Origin: Nitrospinota bacterium
GTDB taxonomy: Bacteria > Nitrospinota > Nitrospinia > UBA9942 > JAHJSF01
DNA: 6,047 bases
Assembly (NCBI GenBank): GCA_018830405.1
Contig: JAHJSF010000147.1
Span: 1 to 6,047, forward strand
Reading direction: 5' to 3'
Positions 1 to 5,780 of this stretch are shown here, in pieces. Made by a program: the position numbers and the translations under genes. Below the pieces are notes generated by a model. The model searched no databases. It had not been told where the DNA came from and saw only the letters and a list, made by a program, of their open reading frames with translations. Position 1 is the stretch's first letter. Every line of letters starts with the position of its first letter.

Positions 1-279
1 ATATATGAGACGTTCCGGGCCATGGCCGATGCCCTTAGGGGACATTTTCAGACATTCGGTCCTACACCTATATACGTGGTGGTTGGACGTGGCGGCCCTA
101 ACCTGATCAGGGGGATGGCCTATATGAAGGATGTGGTTGAATCATTGGGTCTCCCCTACCGATTCTTCGGTTTTGACAGTGCAATGTCTGAGGTGGTTAA
201 CCATGCCTTAAAGGCGGATGACTGGATGGCCAGCGAGGGGAGAAAAGAGTTGGCTAAAAAAATGGGAATTTCATTATAA
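1..279 (+). CDS. aclB: ATP-citrate lyase small (beta, AclB-like) subunit, C-terminal end, 5' truncated by window
   Basis: Reading frame 1 is open from the window edge to the TAA at 277-279, giving 92 residues; the true start lies upstream. The motif RGGPN (bases 88-102), followed by a segment reading GLPYRFFGFDSAMSEVV, matches the end of the citrate-binding domain of human ACLY, which reads RGGPNYQEG and then GIPIHVFGTETHMTAIV. In the two-subunit bacterial enzyme this domain closes the small subunit, which carries the ATP-grasp fold and binds citrate. The complete enzyme converts ATP, citrate and CoA to acetyl-CoA, oxaloacetate, ADP and phosphate in the cytoplasm. The gene ends 15 bases before the AclA-like gene on the same strand, so the two almost certainly form one transcript. 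An isolated succinyl-CoA synthetase beta subunit is less likely because of the ACLY-type motif and the fused lyase partner downstream. The ATP-grasp part cannot be examined here. Confidence 0.8.
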   Translation: MYETFRAMADALRGHFQTFGPTPIYVVVGRGGPNLIRGMAYMKDVVESLGLPYRFFGFDSAMSEVVNHALKADDWMASEGRKELAKKMGISL

Positions 280-294
280 CGAGAGGAAAAACTA

Positions 295-3006
295 ATGCAT
301 AAAGAAGGAATTAAGGGTTTTCCGTATTATGTTGGGATAGATTCCCTTGCTCAGATTGCAACTGCGGAAGACAGGGTCTGCGTACTTAATATGCTCGGGA
401 ATGAGAGTAGAGGCGTAACCCCCGTAAGCCATACCTTTTCAGGGGGTAATGTAGTCTTTGGGACAGGTCCGGGAAGGTCAGGCCAGGTTTTAAAGACCGC
501 CAAAGGGAATATCCCTGTTTATAACTCGGTCAAAGAGGGGGTAGAGGCGGGGCACACATTTAATACCGGAGTTGTCTATCTTCCCCCTTCAGCGGTTAAG
601 GATGGGGTGGCCGAGCTTGTCCGCTATAATCCCGACCTGAAGAAGATCGTCATACTTACGGAGAAGGTATCTGTAAAGGATTCGAGAGAGATTAGGTCTA
701 TATGTCAGACCAACGGCATAGATGTCTTTGGTGGAAATTGTCTTGGAGTAGCCGATTCATGGAATCATGTCAGAATAGGGGGAGCCCTTGGGGGGAACAG
801 CCCCGAGGAGTCTCTTGTTAAGGGGAGTATTGCCCTATATTCCAATTCCGGTAACTTTACCACTACCATAGCTGTTTATCTGACTACTGCGGGTTGGGGG
901 ACAACCACATCTGTATCGAGCGGGAAGGATGTCTATATCCATTTCGCCGCCAAAGAATTCTTCCATGCCCTTGATAATGATGACCGCTCCAAAGGGGCTG
1001 TTGCCTATGTTGAACCTGGTGGATATTATGAGCATGGACTTGAGATTACTAAGCCGACTGTTGCCTGTATTGTTGGGCGCTGGAAGAGTGAGTTGACCAA
1101 GGCCTGTGGTCATGCAGGTTCTTTGGCCGGTTCAGGGGATGATGCTAAAGCCAAAGAAAAGTGGTTTATGGATTACTTTGGTGTTGACTCCATATATTCC
1201 CCTGAAAACCCTGTTGTCTCTAAGAAGGGGGCGGTGGTAACCAATATAGCCCATATACCTGAGGCGATGACCAAGGTTATGGACCTCAATAAGATTAAAC
1301 CAGATTTTGAGCCGAAGGGGGATCTCTCCCTTAAATGCTGGTTTGCCAACGATCAGGGACTCTCTCTCCCCAAGGAGTTGGATTTAGAACCTGTTGAGCC
1401 TCTTGCTCCCTATAATGAACAGGTGAAAAATATCAATATGCAGGTCGGAGCACAGTTCCCCCGCCAGGGCATGAAGGATACCAGCGGAGTCTCATTCATG
1501 GATTCGAAGACCCAGGTTAGCCGAATCCAGAATGTATCTATCCTTGATGCCTCGGAAAAGTCGGTGGAGGAGAATATTGTCTTATCGCTGATAAAGTCTT
1601 ATCCGGAAGATGCTGGAAGAAAGCTGGCCAATATCGCCCTTAACGCCTATGTCAATATGCATGGAGAGGTGGGGCTGTTGGCGGCAGACGCGGCCAGAGA
1701 GGCCGGTTCTTCTCCAAACGTTGTCCTTTCATCCGCTATAGCTATTGTAGGGAAGAAAAAGGCCCAGAAGGCGATTGATATTTCGGAGCTTATTGTTGAT
1801 ACCTTTAAACATAAGGGAATTAATAATGGTTTTGGAGATTTTGATTTTTCAGAACAGTTGGCCGGACTCACAAACGACCATAAGACCCTCCTTGCAGCCG
1901 GGGCTGGGGATAAGCTTGCCCCTGCTATGCTGGCTGCTATTGATAAGGTTAGCGACAGGTCTATCTTTATAGAGTTTGTCAAGAAGGCATCTGGGGGGAA
2001 ACCATCCTCCTCTGCTATGCTTGGGGCCATTTGGGCCACTATAAGCTGGAGCGCCTTGGTTAAAAATAAGATATCAAAGGCAACATTTGTATCCCTCCCC
2101 TGGTATTCACTACTCTTTTCAGCCATGGTTGGTTCCTCTGTTTCGAATGACTCTCATACTGAAACGTCTTTCAAGGGGATCAAGAATGTTGAGATTGTAG
2201 AGGAGTGGAGTTTTACCGAAACCATCTTCCTTTCTGTTATGGGACGGAGACCTACAAAGGCTGAGCTGGTAGAGTTTAGCTGTCTTTTGGGACTGATTAT
2301 TACCAATGGTCCGGGGACAATATCTGCCCAGGGGGCTAAGGGGGCGGTCAGTGCCGATGGTCCTCAGGTTACCGATAGGGTACAGATCAACAAAGGGTTT
2401 ATCGGATTCCTTACCCATACCGGTTTCGCCCACGGCGGTAACGGTTATGAGGCGATGGCCTTCCTGATGGAGATATTTAAGGGAACTACACTTAAGGACC
2501 CGGGTAATAAGGAGCATGGTATCGACCTTAAAGAGATAGCCAATATTTATGCCAAGTCCTACGGGGCCTATAAGAAGAAGGAGAAGGAGACCGGGAATAT
2601 TGAGTATGACAAGATACCATGTATCAACCACCCCGTTTTCAAGGGGAAGGATATAAACTATGACCCGAGAGAACAGTTTGTGACGGAGTTGTTTGAGAAG
2701 AGCGGCAACTATAATATCTTCCTTGATTTCTATCATGAGCTGGTTCAGGCCCTATTTGCCAATAAGGTCTCCCCCAATGTCTATTGTGTCAACGTAGATG
2801 CGGTTATTGCCGTTATTCTCCTGAAGATGTTCTGGCCGATGATTAAGGCCAATAAGGTATCTGACAGTGATGTTGAAAGCTCGGCCTTTACAACCTTCCT
2901 GTATGGCAGGATGATGGGCTGCGCCGCTGAGATAGACGACCATCTGAATCGTGGCCGAAACATGGACACTAGGACACCGGCTAGCCAGTGTACCTATGTG
3001 GGGTAG
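295..3006 (+). CDS. aclA: ATP-citrate lyase large (alpha, AclA-like) subunit with an extra citrate-synthase-like module
   Basis: 903 residues; ATG start with GAGAGG at 281-286, 8 bases upstream. Domains in order: a CoA-binding Rossmann domain (about 40-165, glycine-rich GTGPGRSG at 56-63); a succinyl-CoA-ligase-alpha-like domain (about 175-320) with the phospho-histidine motif GHAG (H273, equivalent to human ACLY H760); a linker (about 340-420); a first citrate-synthase-like stretch (about 423-621); and a second, canonical one (about 639-895). The second keeps AHGGN (H713), H779, YDPR (R792), NVD (D835) and YGR (R872), which match citrate synthase and ACLY active-site residues. The residue matching ACLY H900 is N671. 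The end, TPASQCTYV, resembles the ACLY tail. The corresponding part of human ACLY is about 615 residues, so roughly 260-290 residues are extra, mostly between H273 and N671 (398 residues apart, against 140 in human). With AclB it should form a complete citrate-cleaving enzyme of the reductive TCA cycle. Activity is inferred. A relation to the divergent ACLs reported in Magnetococcus and Nitrospira is possible. Confidence 0.85.
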   Translation: MHKEGIKGFPYYVGIDSLAQIATAEDRVCVLNMLGNESRGVTPVSHTFSGGNVVFGTGPGRSGQVLKTAKGNIPVYNSVKEGVEAGHTFNTGVVYLPPSAVKDGVAELVRYNPDLKKIVILTEKVSVKDSREIRSICQTNGIDVFGGNCLGVADSWNHVRIGGALGGNSPEESLVKGSIALYSNSGNFTTTIAVYLTTAGWGTTTSVSSGKDVYIHFAAKEFFHALDNDDRSKGAVAYVEPGGYYEHGLEITKPTVACIVGRWKSELTKACGHAGSLAGSGDDAKAKEKWFMDYFGVDSIYSPENPVVSKKGAVVTNIAHIPEAMTKVMDLNKIKPDFEPKGDLSLKCWFANDQGLSLPKELDLEPVEPLAPYNEQVKNINMQVGAQFPRQGMKDTSGVSFMDSKTQVSRIQNVSILDASEKSVEENIVLSLIKSYPEDAGRKLANIALNAYVNMHGEVGLLAADAAREAGSSPNVVLSSAIAIVGKKKAQKAIDISELIVDTFKHKGINNGFGDFDFSEQLAGLTNDHKTLLAAGAGDKLAPAMLAAIDKVSDRSIFIEFVKKASGGKPSSSAMLGAIWATISWSALVKNKISKATFVSLPWYSLLFSAMVGSSVSNDSHTETSFKGIKNVEIVEEWSFTETIFLSVMGRRPTKAELVEFSCLLGLIITNGPGTISAQGAKGAVSADGPQVTDRVQINKGFIGFLTHTGFAHGGNGYEAMAFLMEIFKGTTLKDPGNKEHGIDLKEIANIYAKSYGAYKKKEKETGNIEYDKIPCINHPVFKGKDINYDPREQFVTELFEKSGNYNIFLDFYHELVQALFANKVSPNVYCVNVDAVIAVILLKMFWPMIKANKVSDSDVESSAFTTFLYGRMMGCAAEIDDHLNRGRNMDTRTPASQCTYVG

Positions 3007-3145: not shown

Positions 3146-3796
3146 ATGACGATAATAAGCATTCTGATATTAACGAGTCTAATCCTGATTTTCTATTTTT
3201 CCTATAATGCGTCTTGTAAGGATGGCGCGGTCGATTATAATGAACTTTTGAAGCTGGGGGGGATGCTTCTCCTTGTTGCCCTTTTTATAGGTCTTTCTAT
3301 CTGGGCAACATTCTTCATTATTCACAGCTTGTCTTGGGTGTTGGTTTATATCCTTACCTTACTGAAAGACGGCATCTTTACAACCAAGGTGGCCGTTATA
3401 ATCTCTCTGCTCATTATAAATGCAGGGGGTGCTTACATCCTCAGGGAGCAGATAAGGGAGAGAAAAGAGGGTGTTGGAGAAGAAAACGGGGAGGATGATA
3501 CTCCTTCAGAGTCTGAGTCCTCCGGTGCATCAGAGACAGTTGTGACAGAGGAAGAGGTTATAGATGCAGAGGTTGTTCTGGAGGATAGTGATGATCCCCT
3601 TCTATTGACCAAGGAGATTTCAATCTCAGAACGCTTGTCCAGGGTGTTATATGAGGCGGGGATTAAGTCTGTTTCCGATTTAACCTCTATGACCGAAGGA
3701 GAGTTAGGGAATGTAAAGAATATAGGTGATAAGTCTTTGGAAGAGATAAAGGAGGCTATGGTTAGTAACGGGTTCTCCTTTAAAAAAGAGGATTAG
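3146..3796 (+). CDS. membrane protein with acidic linker and C-terminal RNA polymerase alpha-CTD-like helix-hairpin-helix domain
   Basis: 216 residues; ATG preceded by GGAGG at 3134-3138 with a 7-base gap. I do not recognise a named family for the whole protein. Residues 2-20, about 38-73 (one long or two short segments) and 82-99 are strongly hydrophobic, so three or four membrane spans are likely. The Arg/Lys-rich stretch REQIRERK at 100-107 suggests that the rest lies in the cytoplasm. Residues 108-152 form a Glu/Asp/Ser-rich, probably disordered linker. Residues 153-213 resemble the C-terminal domain of RpoA: DPLLL, then SDLTSMTEGEL, then NIGDKSLEEIKE, against NLGKKSLTEIKD in E. coli. Residues matching the E. 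coli DNA contacts R265, G296, K298, S299 and E302 are present (R163, G194, K196, S197, E200), while N268 and C269 are R166 and V167. The fold could bind DNA or proteins; the function is unknown. It has its own promoter and is followed by tRNA genes. Confidence 0.8.
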   Translation: MTIISILILTSLILIFYFSYNASCKDGAVDYNELLKLGGMLLLVALFIGLSIWATFFIIHSLSWVLVYILTLLKDGIFTTKVAVIISLLIINAGGAYILREQIRERKEGVGEENGEDDTPSESESSGASETVVTEEEVIDAEVVLEDSDDPLLLTKEISISERLSRVLYEAGIKSVSDLTSMTEGELGNVKNIGDKSLEEIKEAMVSNGFSFKKED

Positions 3797-4072: not shown

Positions 4073-5716
4073 TCAACCGCCAAGTATATTGAATAGGTAG
4101 GGAACCACCTGTTTCTTCCTTGAAAGGACATTCTTCATCTCGAAGATGTTGGCTTCCCTCTCCGGCAGTTCTATCGACATATAGACCTCTTGGGTAGCTG
4201 ATACACATAATAGTGTTACCTCGTAAGTTATATCGGTTACCATGAGGGCAACCAGATCAAACCCCTTTTCTTTTCTTGTGTCTTCCAAGGAGGCCATTAT
4301 TTCTTCTTTGATCTGATGAAACTTGTTGAACCCTACAACCTCAACCTGCCCTATGCCAACCTTATTTTTCCCTATAGTGAACGCTTTGAAATCGTTCAGG
4401 ATAATATCTTTGACGGACCTGTTGGTTAATAGGGAAGAGCCCTCAAACATTTCTACAGAGAATTTGTCTTTCGATATTCCAGATACATCTTCTAACCATT
4501 TCATTGCCTCAAGGTCACAGTTGGTTGTTGTGGGAGAACGGCCGGTTAGGGTGTCTGATATTATCCCGGCCAAGAGAATTCCGGCTGTGCTTTTGTCCAA
4601 ATCTGTTTTGGTATTCCTATACTTTTCAGCAATAAGGGTGCAGGTGCTTCCGACCGGGCGGATTGTAAAATCAATAGGCATTGATGTTTGAAAACTCGCC
4701 ATACGGTGATGGTCGACTACTTCTATAATCTCTGCCTGATCTGCTCCGTCTATTGCCTGTGACAGTTCGTTGTGGTCCAGCAGGATAAGTTTTATACCTG
4801 GCGGTTTCAGGAAGTTGCTCTTTGTTACAACGCCCCGGAGTCTTTCATTCTCATCTACTACTAACATCCCTTTTTCATTTGATTTAAGAAAGACCCTCTT
4901 AGCCGTTTCTACACGTTCATTTCCCTTAAACATTAAATATTTATTGGAACATGACTCTATGGCCGGGGCGGACAATTTGGCCAACCAAGCGGTCGAGGCG
5001 GAATCGTGCGGGGAACTCATCAGGCTAACCCCTTTTCCCCTGGCCATCTCCACTATATCGCCGGTCAGTTTTAGCCCCCCCGTTGTTATAACGATTGCGC
5101 ATCCCTTGGTTATAGATTCCTCTATGATATTGTATCGATCTCCAACGACTATTATAAGTTTTGATGGGTCGTGACCTTCTATCGTTTTGTTGAAGGAGGC
5201 TTGAGACATTGCCCCGACAAATACTGCATAATTTTCCTCTTTCTTGCCGGCCAGGTTGAGGATTATTTCTGAGTCGGTCGAAGAGGCAATGTTTCCCAAT
5301 GTTGTCCGTACTTGTCGGACGGTTGTCCCGCCTGACATAGAGATAAATTGTTCTGCCAAATCTGAGGCAACCAGAGTGCCAACAACCTTGTTTGTTTCGG
5401 TAACAACAGGCATGAATCTTGCGCCCTTTTCCTTGAATTTTCTCATTACATCGATTATGGGGGTATTGGGAAGAGCCGTGATTACATCCTCAATCATTAT
5501 GTCCGATAGTCGGGGGTATACATCGGAGAAGAAGGTCGGGGCCTCTCTTCCAAAGTAGCGCAAGACGAAATCTGTTTGGGGATTTATATTCCCTGCTCGG
5601 CCGGCTATTATTCCCTTAGCCCCATGAATTCTCTTAAACTCGGAATAGGCTATGGCCGAACAGATTGAATCTGTATCGGGGTTTTTGTGGCCTATTATAA
5701 TTGTTTTTCTATCCAT
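4073..5716 (-). CDS. ppaC: family II manganese-dependent inorganic pyrophosphatase with CBS-DRTGG-CBS regulatory insert
   Basis: 547 residues from the ATG at 5716. The enzyme hydrolyses pyrophosphate to phosphate in the cytoplasm and pulls biosynthetic reactions forward. The DHH-family N-terminal part begins GHKNPDTDS (metal ligands H10, D14, D16). It is interrupted by CBS 1 (about 68-125), a DRTGG domain (about 185-250, with VVGDRYN and TTGG) and CBS 2 (about 255-304). The catalytic domain resumes with LLDHNE (D314), VDHH (D335, H336, H337) and SDT (D388), and the C-terminal DHHA2 domain carries SRKKQVVP at 532-539. Length and order match clostridial CBS-PPases, in which AMP and ADP inhibit and ATP or diadenosine polyphosphates activate; such control here is inferred. 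An in-frame GTG at 5755 would add 13 residues. The ATG is preferred because the family normally begins just before the GHKNPD strand, although neither start has a strong ribosome site (a weak GTAGAG lies 11 bases before the ATG). The gene converges on tRNA-Cys and diverges from purM. Confidence 0.93.
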   Translation of the reverse strand: MDRKTIIIGHKNPDTDSICSAIAYSEFKRIHGAKGIIAGRAGNINPQTDFVLRYFGREAPTFFSDVYPRLSDIMIEDVITALPNTPIIDVMRKFKEKGARFMPVVTETNKVVGTLVASDLAEQFISMSGGTTVRQVRTTLGNIASSTDSEIILNLAGKKEENYAVFVGAMSQASFNKTIEGHDPSKLIIVVGDRYNIIEESITKGCAIVITTGGLKLTGDIVEMARGKGVSLMSSPHDSASTAWLAKLSAPAIESCSNKYLMFKGNERVETAKRVFLKSNEKGMLVVDENERLRGVVTKSNFLKPPGIKLILLDHNELSQAIDGADQAEIIEVVDHHRMASFQTSMPIDFTIRPVGSTCTLIAEKYRNTKTDLDKSTAGILLAGIISDTLTGRSPTTTNCDLEAMKWLEDVSGISKDKFSVEMFEGSSLLTNRSVKDIILNDFKAFTIGKNKVGIGQVEVVGFNKFHQIKEEIMASLEDTRKEKGFDLVALMVTDITYEVTLLCVSATQEVYMSIELPEREANIFEMKNVLSRKKQVVPYLFNILGG

Positions 5717-5780
5717 GTTTTTGTTTACTCTACAAAACCTCTGTTTGTTGGTCACTAGTGCTTAATTGCCTAAATCTTGC

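Follow-up and report, generated by a model that had tools for sequence, protein, structure and literature searches.

Tandem citryl-CoA lyase-like copies, the first a predicted pseudoenzyme domain, in the large subunit of a type II ATP-citrate lyase from Nitrospinota

Why should AclA, the large subunit of an ATP-citrate lyase (ACL), run to 903 residues in a Nitrospinota bacterium, when the canonical AclA of its relatives has 619–620? In the dark ocean, Nitrospina-type nitrite oxidisers fix carbon by the reverse TCA cycle, which has ATP-citrate lyase as its key enzyme. The long chain is encoded on the window, by which we mean the whole stretch of DNA analysed, an entire contig of 6047 bases from a draft genome of 1.42 Mb (87% complete) whose class includes a genome with the Nitrospina sp. 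MSP locus. A preliminary description of this DNA proposed that residues 423–621 and 639–883 of AclA are copies of one citrate-synthase-like unit and that the first should not be catalytic alone. Residues 423–883 correspond exactly to window positions 1561–2943, within the open reading frame at 295–3006 (+ strand). The parts of the chain and the gene before it are as follows (CCS, citryl-CoA synthetase; CCL, citryl-CoA lyase).

1..279, + strand: 3′ end of aclB, the citrate-binding/ATP-grasp subunit of ATP-citrate lyase (PF16114 Citrate_bind, E 7.4e-9), truncated by the contig edge
295..3006, + strand: aclA, predicted large subunit of a type II ATP-citrate lyase, 903 aa (type II PCR primer sites, orthologues)
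295..1284, + strand: CCS alpha-like part with CoA-binding and ligase domains, residues 1–330 (PF02629, PF13607; small subunit of citryl-CoA synthetase, 6hxq, E 4.2e-29)
1111..1113, + strand: H273 in a GHAG motif (42/42 orthologues)
1285..1479, + strand: linker, residues 331–395 (pLDDT <50 at 341–397; mean pairwise identity 0.58)
1480..2157, + strand: first CCL-like module, a predicted catalytically degenerate pseudo-CCL, residues 396–621 (hhalign, predicted fold, tree, alignment)
2158..3003, + strand: second CCL module, catalytically intact, residues 622–903 (PF00285; NF004869; match to a canonical-CCL profile)

The stop codon of aclB and the ATG of aclA (position 295) are 15 bases apart, with GAGAGGAAAA in between, and the aclB 3′ end is the sole Citrate_bind match in the whole genome. 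HMM searches of AclA recognized a CoA-binding and succinyl-CoA-ligase-like part at about 26–303 and a citrate-synthase/citryl-CoA-lyase part at about 615–902. In the former lies H273, which we take to be the counterpart of the histidine that is phosphorylated in succinyl-CoA and citryl-CoA synthetases. The latter, our second copy, matches the NF004869 citryl-CoA lyase model (E 9.9e-15) and, as a profile, canonical CCL (P 1e-13). The predicted pseudo-CCL follows directly on the CCS part and linker, the place of the single CCL of a canonical AclA, and the catalytic copy is C-terminal; the first ends at residue 621 and the second starts at 622, with no linker between them.

Beyond aclA, positions 3146–3793 (+ strand) encode a 216-aa protein with N-terminal hydrophobic segments and an RNA-polymerase alpha-CTD-like domain (PF03118, E 1.2e-12), an unusual membrane/alpha-CTD pairing. 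An ordinary manganese-dependent inorganic pyrophosphatase with CBS and DRTGG domains occupies 4076–5755 (− strand). A separate citrate synthase, present in most relatives, was not found in the 87% complete draft.

The assignment to type II rests on PCR primer sites and gene order. Type II ATP-citrate lyase is known from tubeworm endosymbionts and Thioflavicoccus (PMC3522073, PMC6315080), and the published primers encode VAKEEWF and NGFEAIA (PMC3522073). The window AclA has both sites, as AKEKWF (286) and NGYEAMA (716), and aclB with its PF16114 citrate-binding domain adjoins aclA; the sites are absent from the canonical ACLs of relatives. We therefore file the 903-aa protein as the large subunit of a type II ATP-citrate lyase, with predicted activity.

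Does the chain really contain one unit twice? Simple searches could not settle this, since those made with single sequences were silent: residues 412–634 alone have no Pfam match, single-sequence HMM searches of the first copy against Pfam and PDB sequences recovered no citrate synthase or CCL family, and in NCBIfam 1 of 30 members matched citryl-CoA lyase (E 0.0085), with no usable match otherwise. Pairwise likeness between the copies is weak as well (9/31 identities for 591–621 against 853–883, and 12/50 for 572–621 against 834–883). What confirmed the duplication was profile–profile comparison. We cut non-overlapping slices, 396–621 and 622–903, from an alignment of 30 full-length orthologues and compared their profiles with hhalign, which aligned 421–621 with 637–883 at a score of 61.6 (P 1.7e-8). 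The highest scores in 100 column shuffles and 100 ten-column block shuffles were 26.1 and 28.6, and the reversed profile reached 12.6. With divergent sequences added (42 orthologues) the score rose to 80.9 (P 1.9e-11). The first-copy profile also matched, in register over 179 columns, canonical CCL modules (P 1.5e-5), which are independent in that they played no part in the duplication hypothesis.

Residues 396–621 and 622–903 are thus confirmed as copies of one unit. The silence of the single-sequence HMM searches is what one would expect if the resemblance were a chance likeness of helical regions, or if the first part had an unrelated fold, but to this reading we give next to no credence: chance likeness is ruled out by the shuffles, the reversal, the independent CCLs and a 12-residue insertion common to both copies (below), and the match to a CCL fold speaks against it too. 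The preliminary description had counted the lack of any citrate-synthase-family match as evidence against itself; such a match is indeed missed by single-sequence HMMs, but it is found once profiles are compared with profiles. Its limits for the unit need correction, since the copies are real but the first does not start at 423, its own N-terminal strands beginning at about 396–400. Its view that the duplication explains the extra length of the chain agrees with our data: given a canonical AclA of 619–620 aa, the extra 284 residues are the additional CCL copy.

To what fold, then, does the first copy belong? Residues 396–630 were modelled alone with 30 orthologous fragments, and the model was of high confidence (pLDDT 91.5, pTM 0.88). 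Its top Foldseek match was the citryl-CoA lyase of Hydrogenobacter thermophilus (6hxp, E 6.5e-4), with which it aligned in VIA at Z 17.1 (rmsd 3.9, 201 residues). All 23 top VIA rows were CCL or ACL entries (Z 14.4–17.1), the CCL parts of the human, Chlorobium and Methanothrix ACLs among them at Z 14.4–16.4, whereas citrate synthases stayed at Z 11.5 or less. As the CCL and ACL entries outrank the citrate synthases, the unit is best described as CCL, a shorter relative of citrate synthase. The model thus predicts a CCL fold for residues 396–621, not an unrelated one, and what the preliminary description called citrate-synthase-like modules are homologous units indeed, but of the CCL size of about 260–280 residues and not full citrate synthases. 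The full-length AF2 model was of low confidence (pTM 0.58), and for this reason we did not read the relative placement of the two copies from it; the rows of its VIA comparison with citrate synthases span both copies, and its best Foldseek match is the canonical two-subunit ACL 6hxj.

The pairs of sites named in the preliminary description are in register in both hhalign and MAFFT (SVEENIVLS with SFTETIFLS, H456 with N671, K489 with H713, S573 with D835, and A610 with R872), and 591–621 aligns without gaps with 853–883 at an offset of 262, as it had claimed. The positions that matter for catalysis are the following.

1759..1761, + strand: K489, aligned with H713; family state R/K/T (alignment)
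2011..2013, + strand: S573, aligned with catalytic D835; Asp in 32/42 orthologues (alignment)
2122..2124, + strand: A610, aligned with R872; family state T/A/S/V (alignment)
2431..2433, + strand: H713 of the HGGNG motif, second copy (42/42)
2629..2631, + strand: H779, second copy, counterpart of the catalytic His in the CCL GxGHR loop (42/42; alignment with canonical CCL)
2797..2799, + strand: D835, second copy, counterpart of the catalytic Asp, NVDG in canonical CCL (42/42; alignment)
2908..2910, + strand: R872, second copy, active-site Arg (42/42)
2971..2973, + strand: R893, C-terminal tail of the second copy, at the position of the cross-subunit Arg of citrate synthase (42/42; canonical CCL tails aligned)

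The second copy (622–903) has the catalytic His/Asp/Arg set and the C-terminal Arg tail, with H713, H779, D835, R872 and R893 kept in all 42 sequences. The first copy (396–621) does not have the set: the loop with the equivalent of H779 is deleted, the positions of R872 and H713 have changed to T/A/S/V and R/K/T, the C-terminal tail is absent, and the Asp is missing from the window protein. The earlier arguments from K489 and A610 hold for the family; that from S573 does not, as 32 of the 42 orthologues have Asp there. Loss of catalysis is well supported by the deleted loop, the changed Arg and His positions and the missing tail, and we infer from the sequences that the first copy is not catalytic. 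It has strict positions of its own, with P474, N475, G486, W585 and L601 in 42/42 sequences and R468 in 40/42.

The first copy might still take a share in catalysis, say as a holding site for citryl-CoA on its way from the CCS to the CCL site; this would agree with its place in the chain, after the CCS part and before the active CCL, and with the Asp kept by most orthologues. With the CoA-binding/catalytic loop deleted and the Arg gone, we regard such a share in catalysis as very unlikely.

Both copies share an insertion before the last long helix.

2056..2091, + strand: 12-residue insertion LVKNKISKATFV, first copy, residues 588–599 (common to the second copy; absent in canonical CCLs)
2842..2877, + strand: 12-residue insertion IKANKVSDSDVE, second copy, residues 850–861 (alignment)

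A tree was built from 17 copies of each kind, first and second, together with 9 CCLs taken from plasmids and from the canonical ACLs of relatives; in this set the insertion was present in 34/34 copies and 0/9 CCLs. First copies, second copies and CCLs each formed one group (100/98 or better). With the CCLs as outgroup the two kinds of copies fell together to their exclusion, on long branches and with a bootstrap that is not fully settled. Sister clades and a common insertion place the duplication inside the type II ATP-citrate lyase lineage, and a single event before the spread of that lineage is the simplest history. One divergent tandem AclA (L095, G008:C20; 48% identity) has a first-copy branch of 2.61 changes per column, and its second copy has intact catalytic residues.

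A copy without chemistry could simply be decaying. Decay in progress is ruled out by the dN/dS of the first copy and by its presence in all full-length orthologues. In most of the closest pairs the ratio is 0.04–0.15, and its median over 50 pairs is 0.17, where the second copy stands at 0.08 and the CCS part at 0.07; the first copy evolves faster than the rest of AclA, yet it is clearly under selection. Both copies occur in every full-length orthologue, and none is without the first. Each of the 31 good-quality genomes in the phylum has a match to the AclA profile, and the near-complete plasmid-borne homologues among the matches listed all have the first copy (34–39% identity). The tandem architecture does not vary, either among Nitrospinota-type genomes or among the plasmid-borne homologues of heterotrophs. 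A homologous fold that has lost its catalytic residues under purifying selection is what one would call a pseudoenzyme domain, and we predict the first copy to be one.

The plasmid-borne aclB-aclA pairs of type II (L075, 7679–11703; L100, 5838–10213; L101, 5837–9828; L105, 5829–9837) come from Microvirga, Gemmobacter, Polymorphobacter and Paraburkholderia, and their large subunits are annotated as "CoA-binding protein" or "hypothetical protein". Tripartite tricarboxylate transporters are encoded close to the pairs of L075 and L100, tcuAB close to that of L100 as well, and two-component regulators close to those of L075, L100 and L101. Such neighbours suggest catabolic use of tricarboxylates by heterotrophs and not CO2 fixation. 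A scan of viral contigs found no relative, and the phage collection gave one short partial match, confined to the CCS part, and no other.

How does this enzyme compare with known ones? The canonical two-subunit ACL (Chlorobium limicola AclA, 617 aa; 6hxj) likewise has a CCS-alpha-like part followed by a CCL module, but it has one CCL copy instead of two, and the canonical CCLs compared are without the 12-residue insertion. The window protein is therefore not a canonical (type I) AclA, in which a single CCL follows CCS-alpha and linker: it has two CCL-like copies. The H. thermophilus CCL (6hxp) has the fold of both copies and is the best structural match of the first, but unlike the first copy it is free-standing, single and catalytic. 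Fused ACLs (animal ACLY, and chains of about 1024–1028 aa in the same-order relatives G002 and G005) share the CCS and CCL chemistry, but there AclB is joined to AclA with a single CCL, whereas the window AclA is separate from AclB. In all, three genomes of the same order but another family (G002:C71, G005:C78 and G006:C22; L090, L091, L094) carry a fused single chain of about 1024–1028 aa like animal ACLY, and they are without the 903-aa type. One genome, G009, carries both a canonical 619-aa AclA and a 903-aa tandem AclA (G009:C98 and G009:C28; L088, L004).

For the working of the enzyme we favour, with somewhat better than even confidence, a type II AclA with a duplicated CCL in which the intact second copy cleaves and the first serves as a structural pseudo-subunit. 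In the lineage's ancestor, the CCL unit would have been duplicated within the gene, giving the two tandem copies. The N-terminal CCS part and AclB would phosphorylate citrate and join it to CoA, by way of phosphorylation at H273, and the second copy would split the resulting citryl-CoA into acetyl-CoA and oxaloacetate. The first, having lost its His loop, active-site Arg and C-terminal tail and kept its fold, would most likely contribute its retained CCL-type dimer helices to the core that holds the CCS parts. Catalytic copies would pair between chains and exchange their R893 tails.

A scaffold or interface role is plausible and fits the pattern of conservation. First-copy identity is 0.52–0.60 in the helices that match the interface helices F, L and M of citrate synthase. 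The argument is weakened by the poor conservation of another interface helix, G, the HGG helix (0.37), and by the fact that hydrophobic cores are conserved anyway. The strict P474, N475 and G486, the near-invariant R468 and the Asp573 of 32/42 orthologues would also fit a ligand site, and they speak for a regulatory domain whose old pocket binds an effector (e.g., citrate, CoA, ADP or 2-oxoglutarate) and controls the enzyme. We hold this to be improbable, as the regions of CCL that bind CoA and substrate are the least conserved in the first copy (0.23–0.41, in the small domain, the counterpart of the CCL part that carries CoA and the catalytic His) and residue 573 of the window AclA is a Ser.

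A different pairing is also conceivable, in which the first and second copies of one chain associate in cis as an internal pseudo-heterodimer; this would take the place of one half of every citrate-synthase-like dimer and leave half the sites dead by design. Tandem linkage without a linker (621/622) and the retention of helices F, L and M in the first copy would suit it. Citrate synthase inserts an Arg from near its C-terminus into the active site of the partner subunit; a tailless first copy cannot supply such an Arg to the active copy, and the invariance of R893 in the second suggests that it serves another intact site. Dimers of second copies between chains, as in the scheme that we favour, are for these reasons preferred over a dead/live dimer in cis, which we consider unlikely, if less so than a regulatory domain.

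In the passages on type II ACL that we consulted (PMC3522073, PMC6315080), a second, degenerate CCL copy is not described. None of the open-access papers searched mentions a tandem active and pseudo CCL; type II ACL itself is known, and priority for the tandem architecture is uncertain. The ACL subunits of N. gracilis have been reported to have very low similarity to known ones (PMC3578206).

The solved ACLs that we found have one CCL per alpha chain. A second, inactive CCL throughout the lineage means that the enzyme's core has to be put together in another way. We would extend this to type II ACLs as a class only tentatively, with odds short of even: there, an obligatory pseudo-CCL in cis may replace part of the core or form an allosteric site, in an architecture unlike that of the solved enzymes. 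The extra copy would help to explain why Nitrospina-type subunits resemble known ACLs so remotely, and it would show clearly how a catalytic domain, once duplicated, can lose its chemistry and still be retained.
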